From the NCBI RefSeq assembly GCF_007747445.1, contig NZ_CP036425.1, positions 868,001 to 932,000 on the forward strand: 64,000 nt of DNA, written 5' to 3'. The position numbers were made by a program, and so were the translations under genes. The stretch is from Poriferisphaera corsica. Its GTDB lineage: Bacteria > Planctomycetota > Phycisphaerae > Phycisphaerales > Phycisphaeraceae. Shown here piece after piece: positions 6,473 through 9,449 of this stretch. Position 1 is the first letter of the stretch. Each line of letters opens with the position of its first letter. The notes below the pieces were generated by a model that was not told the origin of the DNA, did no database searches, and worked only from the letters and a program-made list of their open reading frames with translations.

Positions 6473-6528
6473 AAGGCGCACATAATGCGCAGCGTTGTGT
6501 ATCGTACGGCCCGATACCAAACGCAGCA

Positions 6529-6583
6529 GAAGGCAGGATGCCTTCGACCTCGTTGGAGTAACGAGTGACTATTTCCAGGATGG
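6529..6583 (+). promoter_or_regulatory. Candidate CsrA-binding hairpins in the fliW leader
   Basis: Two perfect 6-bp stems and one 3-bp stem each place GGA in the loop. They are GAAGGC/GCCTTC around AGGAT (6529-6545), CTCGTT/AACGAG around GGAGT (6549-6565), and CCA/TGG around GGA (6575-6583). GGA in a hairpin loop is the hallmark of CsrA target RNA, and csrA lies two genes downstream of flgL. Binding is inferred. Confidence 0.6.
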
Positions 6584-6602
6584 ATGGCCGCTATGAAGGT
6601 TA

Positions 6603-7058
6603 ATGATCATGATGATCAATACCTCGCGTTTCGGTGAAATGGAAGTCGATGATTCTCGGGTCATCTCTTTCGAAAAAGGTTTGCTTGGCTTCCCCAAATA
6701 CAGGCATTACGTCCTGATCGAAGCCGGGCAAGATTCCTACTTCTGGTGGCTTCAGTCCATCGAATTGCCTGAATTGGCTTTCGTCGTCACGGACCCAAGT
6801 CTCTTTGTTCCTACTTATCGCGTTCCTCTTCGTGAAGAACAGATGAAGGACATGGGCATGGATTCCGTCGAAGACGCACAAGTCTTTGTGATCGTAAACA
6901 AACGCGACAACGTTCTGACCGGTAATCTGCAAGGACCACTCGTTATCAATGTAGGTAGCCGCAATGGTGAGCAACTCGTCCTCAGTGACAGACGCTTCAC
7001 CACTCGTGTGCCACTCATTGAGATCGGCAATAACCTGCAGAAAGCAGCTTCTGCGTAA
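6603..7058 (+). CDS. fliW: Flagellar assembly factor FliW
   Basis: FliW binds CsrA and flagellin alternately; when it is free of flagellin it sequesters CsrA and so lets flagellin mRNA be translated. The frame shows the family pattern SRFGEMEVDDSRVISFEKGL, GFPKYRHYVLIE, FWWLQSIELPELAFVVTDP and, toward the end, GNLQGPLVINVGSRNGEQLVL. The 151 residues are typical. Three in-frame ATGs lie at 6603, 6609 and 6612; the AAGG at about 6596 fits the second best, so the first two or three residues are uncertain. It stands 130 bp after flgL, with a GGA-hairpin leader, and shortly before csrA and flagellin. Confidence 0.93.
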   Translation: MIMMINTSRFGEMEVDDSRVISFEKGLLGFPKYRHYVLIEAGQDSYFWWLQSIELPELAFVVTDPSLFVPTYRVPLREEQMKDMGMDSVEDAQVFVIVNKRDNVLTGNLQGPLVINVGSRNGEQLVLSDRRFTTRVPLIEIGNNLQKAASA

Positions 7059-7359
7059 TCCGACTTGCTGAGCAACTTGCGTGATGAACGATCAAATGCG
7101 AATTGTAGCTTCAAGCAAACAATACGCTGAAAATCCTTCACCACACACGATCGACCCACAGGTCAACACGTGTGTAATAACGCAAAACACTCTAAAAACT
7201 GTCGTAGCGATTGATGTTGTTTGTTGTAACGAGTAACTCACATTACTCAGGCATTCAAACCGAATAGCCTCAACTTCATCTGTCGCAAATGTGTTAACGG
7301 GACCCCGCGCACGGATACGCGCAGGGTAAACAATCGGCCCAAGGAAGGAGCCCGACACC
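7059..7359. other. Intergenic region fliW-csrA with leader elements
   Basis: No gene is supported here. There is an inverted repeat, GAGTAA/TTACTC, around a 6-base loop near 7231-7248. At 7307-7322 a GCGC...GCGC stem encloses ACGGATAC, a possible CsrA site (GGA in loop) in the csrA leader. An AAGGAAGGAG ribosome-binding region precedes csrA at about 7341-7350. Confidence 0.4.
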
Positions 7360-7629
7360 ATGCTGGTGCTTTCCCGTCAACGCGACGAAACGATCATGAT
7401 CGGTGATGAAATCGAAATCACCGTCGTCGATATTCGAGGGGATAAAGTCAGACTCGGTATTAACGCGCCAAGACAAGTTCAAGTACACCGTAAAGAAGTG
7501 TATGAGGCAATCAAACGCGAAAACGCCGAAGCCGCACGAGTCCAAGTCGAAGATCTTAACGTCGCTGACAAAAATCTGCGTGGACGAATTAACAAACTCG
7601 CCATGCATCGTCATAACAGGAACGGTTAA
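7360..7629 (+). CDS. csrA: Carbon storage regulator CsrA
   Basis: CsrA is a small RNA-binding dimer that represses translation by covering GGA-containing leaders. The N-terminus [20 protein letters not shown], the core [19 protein letters not shown] and the helix [14 protein letters not shown] are the complete canonical CsrA fold. The 89 residues include a longer C-terminal tail than the 61-residue E. coli protein. The tail, ending in RHNRNG, is basic. The start follows a strong AAGGAAGGAG box. The gene lies between fliW and the flagellin gene, the arrangement associated with FliW-dependent control of flagellin amount. Confidence 0.96.
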
Positions 7630-7746
7630 CTTCATACGGAATAGGGTTTAAACCAACCCGCCTTGATCTAAGCATTTGATAGATTTTCATACGTTTCATG
7701 GAAGAAGCAGCTCAGATCTTGGAATCCAAAACAGCTTAACGCTGAT

Positions 7747-7786
7747 ATCAGGCAGGAGCCTGATCAGACAATCAAGGAGGATTGTC
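7747..7786 (+). promoter_or_regulatory. Two GGA-loop hairpins covering the flagellin ribosome-binding site
   Basis: Two tandem perfect 7-bp stems directly precede the flagellin ATG at 7788. The first has arms ATCAGGC (7747-7753) and GCCTGAT (7758-7764) around AGGA. The second has arms GACAATC (7767-7773) and GATTGTC (7780-7786) around AAGGAG, which is the Shine-Dalgarno sequence itself. This matches the two-site CsrA target known from the Bacillus hag leader. Confidence 0.75.
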
Positions 7787-7787
7787 A

Positions 7788-9449
7788 ATGTCCAGAATTA
7801 ACACAAACGTTTCATCATTAATTGCTCGAAACAATCTCGCTAAAACCAACGGTGAACTCTCGACCAGTTTGCAACGCCTCTCTACAGGCCTCCGCATCAA
7901 TCGCGGTGCAGACGACCCCGCTGGGCTCATCGTTTCCGAAAGACTCCGCGCTGAAATGTCCGGCGTCACGCAATCGATCGACAACATCGAGCGTGCCTCC
8001 AACGTCATCGCCACCGCTGAGTCCTCACTTCAAGAGATCAACACACTTGTTCTCTCGATGAAGAGCCTCGTCCTTGAAGCCGCCAACACGGGTGCCTTCT
8101 CCAAAGAGGAAATCGAAGCGAACCAGTTGCAGATCGACTCCGCAATCGAGTCCGTCACACGTATCGCGAACACCACTACTTTTGCAGGTCTTAAACTGCT
8201 CAACGGCTCGCTCGACTACATCACCAAAGGTGTTAAAGCAGCCGAGATCACAGACCTCACCGTCCAAGGTGTCAACTTCGGTACAAACAACTCTTTGCCC
8301 GTGACCGTCGAAGTACTTCAGTCTGCTCAGCAGGCCAGCATGTACATGACCGTTACCGACTTCGATCATGCAACACCCCCCACCGACCCAACACTCAAAG
8401 ACGACGTGTCTTTCGAGATTATGGGCAACAACGGCGTCGAAGTCTTCGAATTCGCAGGTGGCACTGCTATCTCCGCGATGGTCTTCGCCATTAATACCAG
8501 CAAAGATGCAACAGGCATCACTGCTGAAGCCGGTGTCTCAGGTATTACACTCAATTCAGGTCAGTTCGGCACAGACGCTTTCGTCTCCGTCAGACGGCTT
8601 GATGGTGATGCGAACACAACTTTCCAAACACGCACCGCAGCAGACGTTGCAACCGCAGTTCCTACAACCGGCACACTCGTCGGTGGGTTCGACGCAGCAA
8701 AAATCGGTACATCCGAAAGAACAAGTAACCCAGATGGTACGGTGACCGTCAGACGCTTCTTTGATGGTGGAACCAACCCCGGCACCGACATGGACTACAT
8801 CGACACCATCGTCAACGCTGGTGAGCCCATCGAACGTGATGAAGGTGCAGACGTGCTCGCACTCGTCAACGGCAACCTCGCCGTCGGTGATGGCCTCGAC
8901 GTCTCACTACGCACGCAAGCACTTAACCTTGAGATGTCCCTCGATAAGGATGCAGCTCAGGTGATTGGTAGCCCATACACCTTCGAAATCCTCGGTGGTG
9001 GAGCAACCTATCAGATCGGGCCAGACGTTAACTCGCAGCAGCAGGTCGGTTTCGGAATCCAATCCGTTGCCGCATCAAATCTTGGCAACACCAATGTTGG
9101 TTTCCTCTCACAGATGAAATCGGGTGGACCCGCTTCGCTCGTCACGGGTTCCGATCCAGTTGACCAGGCACGTAATGCTGATGCGATTCTTGATGCAGCG
9201 ATCAATGAGATTTCCTCACTTCGCGGCCGCATCGGGGCGTTTGAGAAGAATACGCTCAATGCAACGCTTGCATCGCAACAGGTTGCCCTTGAGAACCTTA
9301 CAGCATCTGAGTCGCAGATTCGCGATGCAGACTTTGCGGAAGAAACCGCGAAGATGACTCGTGCTCAGGTTCTTCAGCAGGCAGGTCAACAGACTCTGTC
9401 GATTGCTAACTCCTCTGCTCAATCTGTTCTTTCACTCTTACAGAGTTAA
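7788..9449 (+). CDS. fliC: Flagellin
   Basis: This is the main filament protein. Residues 1-150 (MSRINTNVSSLIARNNLAKT, LQRLSTGLRINRGADDPAGL) and the last 100 (SLRGRIGAFEKNTLNATLAS, ADFAEETAKMTRAQVLQQAG, ending SVLSLLQS) are the conserved D0/D1 helices. The 300-residue middle is the variable surface domain. ATG 7788 is chosen over the in-frame TTG at 7782 because AAGGAGG at 7774-7780 is well placed for it. At 553 residues it is moderately large. A strong terminator follows. It is the last gene of the flagellar block, downstream of its presumed regulators FliW and CsrA. Confidence 0.97.
   Translation: MSRINTNVSSLIARNNLAKTNGELSTSLQRLSTGLRINRGADDPAGLIVSERLRAEMSGVTQSIDNIERASNVIATAESSLQEINTLVLSMKSLVLEAANTGAFSKEEIEANQLQIDSAIESVTRIANTTTFAGLKLLNGSLDYITKGVKAAEITDLTVQGVNFGTNNSLPVTVEVLQSAQQASMYMTVTDFDHATPPTDPTLKDDVSFEIMGNNGVEVFEFAGGTAISAMVFAINTSKDATGITAEAGVSGITLNSGQFGTDAFVSVRRLDGDANTTFQTRTAADVATAVPTTGTLVGGFDAAKIGTSERTSNPDGTVTVRRFFDGGTNPGTDMDYIDTIVNAGEPIERDEGADVLALVNGNLAVGDGLDVSLRTQALNLEMSLDKDAAQVIGSPYTFEILGGGATYQIGPDVNSQQQVGFGIQSVAASNLGNTNVGFLSQMKSGGPASLVTGSDPVDQARNADAILDAAINEISSLRGRIGAFEKNTLNATLASQQVALENLTASESQIRDADFAEETAKMTRAQVLQQAGQQTLSIANSSAQSVLSLLQS

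Follow-up and report, generated by a model that had tools for sequence, protein, structure and literature searches.

GGA-loop hairpins conserved in the flagellin, fliW, and csrA leaders point to a probable FliW-CsrA-flagellin homeostasis circuit in Poriferisphaera corsica and its relatives

The window analyzed here is a 64,000-nucleotide stretch, positions 868001-932000, of the 4,291,168-base, single-contig genome of Poriferisphaera corsica. It contains a flagellar gene cluster in the order flgH, flgI, an open reading frame without a Pfam match, flgN, flgK, flgL, fliW, csrA, and flagellin. The genes flgK and flgL were assigned from domain content and gene order, and the start of fliW was taken as 6609 rather than 6603 on the basis of alignment with relatives. 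In window coordinates, the last three genes of the cluster are:

6609..7058, plus strand: fliW (PF02623, E 7.1e-34)
7360..7629, plus strand: csrA, 89 amino acids with N55 and a C-terminal extension (PF02599, E 7e-26)
7788..9449, plus strand: flagellin (PF00669, E 3.3e-30; PF00700, E 4.7e-17)

The FliW protein matches PDB chains 2aj7_A and 5dmb_A, the second of which is a FliW chain, and the best PDB match of CsrA is 5dmb_D, the FliW-bound CsrA of that same entry, with N55 aligned. Asparagine 55 of CsrA is described as required for FliW binding in Geobacter (PMC13407953, text available in part). The locus thus resembles a FliW-CsrA-flagellin partner switch in having a FliW homologue adjoining csrA and flagellin and a CsrA with both N55 and a C-terminal extension. 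A second, divergent CsrA of 65 amino acids without the extension is encoded at contig position 732996, beside a gene with a NifU-like domain. A sister species of the same genus, whose FliW is 93% identical, served for close comparison.

Three hairpins presenting GGA in the loop lie upstream of flagellin:

7693..7708, plus strand: flagellin leader hairpin A, GTTTC-ATGGAA-GAAGC
7747..7764, plus strand: flagellin leader hairpin B, ATCAGGC-AGGA-GCCTGAT, a perfect 7-bp stem
7767..7786, plus strand: flagellin Shine-Dalgarno hairpin C, GACAATC-AAGGAG-GATTGTC, a perfect 7-bp stem

An earlier note, made by reading this DNA unaided, had described hairpins B and C as tandem perfect hairpins, the second covering the Shine-Dalgarno sequence. 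Both lie exactly where it placed them and exceed chance expectation, as two hairpins with stems of at least 7 bp occurred in 0 of 300 dinucleotide shuffles (3/300 at a cutoff of at least 6 bp, and 0/300 at a cutoff of at least 5 bp, where three hairpins are counted). The fold of the whole leader is likewise unusually stable (z = -3.47, with none of 200 shuffles equally stable), and hairpins B and C are present in both the minimum free energy and the centroid structures. In the sister species, three of the seven pairs of hairpin B are changed on both sides while the AGGA loop is unchanged. Hairpin A, which the note overlooked, is identical there although the two flagellin leaders are only 66% identical.

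The flagellin leader thus combines a CsrA-type site over the Shine-Dalgarno sequence with a further site upstream, as in a FliW-CsrA-flagellin partner switch. In Bacillus subtilis, the same three proteins are encoded by adjacent genes and CsrA occludes the flagellin Shine-Dalgarno sequence through two leader sites, to which the candidate sites described here are alike (PMC6529632 and PMC7652899, as far as their available text goes). The flaA leader of Campylobacter jejuni carries two GGA stem-loops, SL1 and SL2, and FliW is the main CsrA antagonist in that species, in which, unlike here, fliW and csrA are not adjacent (PMC4894983, available text). Clostridioides difficile has two predicted CsrA hairpins before fliC, one of them over the Shine-Dalgarno sequence; its fliW and csrA genes are cotranscribed, and fliC is the sole CsrA target treated among the three genes in the accessible part of that source (PMC11898703). 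We regard the flagellin arrangement as a new instance of a known circuit.

To place the locus among its relatives, we surveyed the order Phycisphaerales, in which FliW and the synteny were found in 59 of 61 genomes, this one included. Fifty-eight FliW loci were taken; a csrA leader could be extracted from 57, and in 52 the flanks included a syntenic flagellin. Hairpins were scored when a stem of at least 5 bp enclosed a 4- to 8-nt loop containing GGA no more than 150 nt before the start codon. By this rule, a GGA-loop hairpin is present in 50/58 fliW, 40/57 csrA, and 48/52 flagellin leaders, compared to 32/150 leaders of other genes from the window and 27 loci (25/100 among those with at least 80 nt of noncoding sequence). 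Fisher's test gives p < 1e-7 for each leader type against the noncoding control, a value that ignores the kinship of the genomes, whose counts are not independent. When loci from both this set and the further set described below were grouped into 18 FliW clusters, the mean hairpin fraction was 0.84 for fliW (18 clusters), 0.57 for csrA (17), and 0.74 for flagellin (12). Hairpins per leader numbered 1.14, 0.82, and 1.29 for fliW, csrA, and flagellin, against 0.25, 0.21, and 0.12 in shuffles, and GGA in loops exceeded shuffles 4.9-fold, 3.5-fold, and 10.8-fold, respectively. Of the 12 other trinucleotides tested, the two that overlap GGA (AGG and GAG) were enriched 2.0- to 9.7-fold and the rest ranged from 0.1- to 2.4-fold. 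The further set consisted of the best 80 of 563 FliW relatives in named genomes, less 27 loci identical to those already taken; in it, GGA hairpins precede 41/52 fliW, 40/53 csrA, and 50/52 flagellin genes. Searching the three leaders of the window against Rfam returned nothing above the cutoff, and plus-strand promoter and terminator scans gave nothing informative.

The earlier note had made conservation of the stems in relatives a test of its reading, which the main elements of the flagellin and fliW leaders pass. For flagellin it is the Shine-Dalgarno hairpin that is conserved; at least two GGA hairpins of 5 bp occur in only 16/52 leaders of the order, so that the upstream site is not general. 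Across the 52 leaders, covariation in the Shine-Dalgarno hairpin is 0.134 versus 0.075 in shuffles (0/500 as high), with slid controls at or below 0.051, and five of its seven pairs show changes on both sides. Its two outer pairs are unpaired in 20 and 16 of the 52 leaders, and the tally of additional pair types is unremarkable (39/500 shuffles). A strict form of the hairpin is present in 44/52 leaders of the order and in 44/52 further leaders drawn from the best 80 of 563 relatives, leaving eight in each set without it. When up to one mismatch is allowed, the hairpin core is present in 78 of 248 genomes searched across the class, flagellated or not, and the reversed pattern in one. Of 20 class-wide core matches, three are not flagellin leaders and 17 sit immediately upstream of the flagellin gene of a fliW-csrA-flagellin cluster; 15 of these 17 loci have a GGA hairpin of at least 5 bp ahead of fliW, and 11 have one ahead of csrA.

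The loops of these hairpins bear on which partner selects them. All 88 strict hairpins, part of them from the best 80 of 563 relatives, were matched with the neutral loop NNGGAN; the first base is A in 88/88, and the second is A in 52, C in 27, G in 5, and T in 4. Pairing with the ribosome uses the sequence AAGGAGG and would favor A at both of these positions. The loop rule of RsmE/CsrA is ANGGAN (PMC7652899, available text), which fixes the first base only, so the observed pattern points to CsrA as the selecting partner and is the best evidence for that role that the leaders offer. A structure that tunes flagellin translation or senses temperature, unrelated to CsrA, would also fit a Shine-Dalgarno sequence held in a loop and the second helix that encloses the start codon in some families. 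It would not, however, predict a loop whose first base is fixed and whose second is free, or the GGA hairpins ahead of fliW and csrA, and we consider this explanation highly improbable. The second helix is formed by TAGCC before the hairpin and GGCTA of codons 1 to 3; it was seen in loci L029, L048, L009, L018, L153, and L154 and is paired in 43% of cells over the 52 rows.

Not every flagellin gene follows this arrangement. Four loci of one genus (L011, L012, L013, and L023) have no Shine-Dalgarno hairpin and carry a GGCCGC-GACGGAGT-GCGGCT hairpin just upstream, at -40 to -21, possibly a shifted candidate CsrA site. In P. corsica itself, three further tandem flagellins at contig positions 2960942-2966071 all lack a Shine-Dalgarno hairpin, and one of them has a CAGGAAG hairpin at -76. 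Control of the CsrA type may thus be limited to some flagellins of the genome.

The leader of fliW has sites of its own:

6473..6608, plus strand: fliW leader, from the flgL stop to the fliW start
6529..6545, plus strand: fliW hairpin 1, GAAGGC-AGGAT-GCCTTC, of the CAGGANG type, a 6-bp stem
6549..6565, plus strand: fliW hairpin 2, CTCGTT-GGAGT-AACGAG, a 6-bp stem
6573..6585 (core 6575-6583), plus strand: fliW site 3, CCAGGATGG

Of three GGA-loop hairpins claimed for this leader in the earlier note, the first two are sound: two stems of at least 6 bp were found in 0/300 dinucleotide shuffles (1/300 at 5 bp or more and 4/300 at 4 bp or more; at a 7-bp cutoff, no hairpin is counted). The third is a weak stem of two C-G pairs and one flanking T-A pair, at -2.2 kcal/mol by itself, and is of interest as a candidate site for the conservation of its sequence in relatives rather than for its stability. 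At CAGGATG sites, RNAfold closes one extra A-U pair to leave a GGA triloop. The leader as a whole folds with z = -2.36, and 6 of 200 shuffles were equally stable.

Conservation again differs from site to site. Covariation over the fliW sites in 57 leaders is 0.260 versus 0.131 in shuffles (0/500), with slid controls at or below 0.114; in hairpin 1, each of the six pairs has changed on both sides and 74.5% of cells are paired, although for the structure as a whole such a count of doubly changed pairs is not unusual (reached by 87/500 shuffles). At site 3, the inner pairs are kept and the outer pairs are broken in 33 and 23 of the 57 leaders. Hairpin 2 is unchanged in the sister species; elsewhere, other sequence replaces it, and a GGA hairpin stands there in some genomes only. 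The suggestion that fliW is itself a target of CsrA is well supported at the level of sequence. A GGA hairpin is carried by 50/58 of the leaders and by 25/100 of the controls. The sites lie upstream of the Shine-Dalgarno sequence without overlapping it, so that direct occlusion at fliW is unproven.

This placement would also suit a leader that serves mainly as a CsrA decoy, or sponge, rather than as a repressed leader. The motif CAGGANG is the repeat of CsrB, and 29/58 fliW leaders of the order contain at least two copies. The flaA leader of C. jejuni is reported to titrate CsrA (PMC4894983, available text). A pattern of three CAGGANG motifs matches at 12 places in the genome, the fliW leader and the array described below among them. 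A decoy would, however, require an abundant transcript, and only 13/52 further fliW leaders from the best 80 of 563 relatives have two CAGGANG motifs; we judge this role of the fliW leader quite unlikely. In the main text of the C. jejuni source, as available (PMC4894983), the fliW locus tag appears once, outside the start of the enrichment table, which speaks neither for nor against CsrA acting on fliW in that species. A literature search, mostly among papers outside subscription, found no report of CsrA acting on fliW and, in agreement with the earlier note, no CsrA study in Phycisphaerae.

The csrA leader, which the earlier note passed over together with the spacing of fliW and csrA, contains two candidate sites:

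7306..7321, plus strand: csrA leader hairpin, CGCG-CACGGATA-CGCG, a 4-bp stem, candidate CsrA site
7336..7353, plus strand: csrA Shine-Dalgarno region, GGCCCAAGGAAGGAGCCC, candidate second CsrA site

The hairpin is not significant in the window, where 50/300 shuffles were as good. In the sister species the stem differs, the GGA of the loop is retained, and the Shine-Dalgarno region is unchanged throughout (7336-7353 is identical, with a local fold of -6.4 kcal/mol). Across the order, csrA leaders often have long stems and ANGGA loops, and we consider them candidate CsrA targets too, though weak in the window.

In Bacillus, translation of csrA is coupled to that of fliW (PMC6529632, available text), whereas here 301 nt separate the two genes (170 nt in the sister species), each of which has its own leader with candidate CsrA sites. 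Translational coupling of the Bacillus type is therefore unlikely at this locus; coupling is a trait of Bacillus rather than an established hallmark of the system, and its absence lowers the likeness, not the membership. Among 79 loci, the gap exceeds 100 nt in 39, measures 41 to 100 nt in 16, and is 40 nt or less in 24. An A.GGA hairpin of 6 bp precedes csrA in 23/39, 7/16, and 0/24 of these classes, respectively, and any GGA hairpin of 6 bp in 29/39, 9/16, and 1/24; the csrA hairpins of the window and of the sister species both fall short of a 6-bp stem. This relation is an association only, since 20 of the 24 short-gap loci come from outside the class, and genes so close together have little noncoding sequence between them. 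All 53 further loci from the best 80 of 563 relatives have gaps above 100 nt, and 26 of the 53 have the A.GGA hairpin. These observations suggest that shared CsrA control of the fliW and csrA messages replaced coupling.

A rival explanation follows the Bacillus model, with CsrA acting on flagellin only and the hairpins before fliW and csrA being elements of processing or stability between cistrons. The Bacillus, Campylobacter, and C. difficile sources describe flagellin-leader sites in their available text (PMC6529632, PMC4894983, PMC11898703), and the middle fliW hairpin is not general and the csrA hairpin of the window is weak. Plain processing hairpins, however, give no reason for GGA in the loop, where it is enriched 4.9-fold before fliW and 3.5-fold before csrA compared to 0.4- to 2.2-fold for trinucleotides other than AGG and GAG. 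Moreover, the base at -2 of GGA is A in 29/38 csrA hairpins versus 17/34 control hairpins (p = 0.019). A restriction of CsrA to flagellin thus seems unlikely to us, and control of all three messages remains the preferred reading.

A further feature that was missed in the earlier note lies outside the window, between genes identified by Pfam as flgG and flgA:

contig 866663-866897, 1.1 kb before the window: flgG-flgA intergenic array, 235 nt with 16 GGA

The array includes three GGA-loop hairpins of at least 6 bp. The sister species has a 230-nt counterpart with 15 GGA and three matching hairpins, and in every one of them some pairs differ on both sides between the two species (the second hairpin was compared by eye). 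Density of GGA was rejected as evidence because another stretch of the window also reaches 18 per 235 nt, which leaves as evidence only the hairpins, the fact that they are re-paired in the sister species, and the location. No such array was found in 28 other loci, in which the next long open reading frame begins 3 to 102 nt after flgG (559 nt in one), and it has been seen only in Poriferisphaera. In Escherichia coli, CsrA inhibits csrA translation and is antagonized by the RNAs CsrB and CsrC, which have multiple GGA sites; Gammaproteobacteria are described as having no FliW, unlike the organism studied here (PMC7652899, available text). The array shares with CsrB/CsrC many GGA motifs, several of them in hairpin loops, but it is not known to be a separate RNA and has no Rfam Csr/Rsm match above the cutoff (RsmZ, 13.8 bits versus a cutoff of 44, E 0.55). 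A simple consensus scan found no sigma-70-like promoter and no plus-strand terminator. The array may act as a CsrA sponge, or it may instead be an flgA leader under strong control.

Comparison of the leaders shows that flagellin, fliW, and csrA are each preceded by conserved hairpins presenting GGA in the form that CsrA recognizes. The loops are ANGGAN in the hairpin over the flagellin start and in those before many csrA genes, and CAGGANG before fliW in many genomes. We consider it probable that, through these candidate sites, CsrA governs the translation of flagellin, fliW, and csrA alike and that the three genes form a FliW-CsrA-flagellin homeostasis circuit; the interpretation offered in the earlier note is to this extent supported, at the level of sequence. 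A CsrA dimer would bridge an upstream hairpin and the site at or near the Shine-Dalgarno sequence and so block the ribosome, and binding of FliW to CsrA would relieve the block. Cytoplasmic flagellin would sequester FliW until the flagellin is exported. With less certainty, since fliW and csrA are uncoupled here, free CsrA may repress both alike; equal repression would make the ratio of their synthesis independent of the CsrA level and hold it roughly constant, as coupling does in Bacillus, and autorepression of csrA would cap CsrA.

A broader proposal joins two parts, namely that Phycisphaerae balance FliW against CsrA through CsrA acting on both leaders rather than through coupling, and that in Poriferisphaera the flgG-flgA array adds an RNA sponge. 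Taken jointly, this is conceivable but doubtful. If true, a single flagellar gene cluster would encode two antagonists of CsrA, one a protein and the other an RNA, whereas FliW and the CsrB-inducing BarA-UvrY system have been reported to be anti-correlated (PMC4682653, available text).

What is new is that fliW and csrA also carry candidate CsrA sites, and that these are retained in a class on which the literature search found no CsrA work. The wiring of leader hairpins is widely kept in relatives and may take the role that coupled fliW-csrA translation has in Bacillus. If the circuit operates as proposed, CsrA control of flagellin would be legible from sequence across a little-studied class, and the A-N-GGA pattern in 88 flagellin loops would be an evolutionary readout of CsrA specificity far from model organisms. 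Within the phylum, two natural strategies for setting how much repressor is made relative to its antagonist could also be compared, one being coupled translation, with a short gap and no csrA hairpin, and the other shared RNA feedback, with a long gap and hairpins. Strains of Poriferisphaera are cultured, which makes the idea testable.
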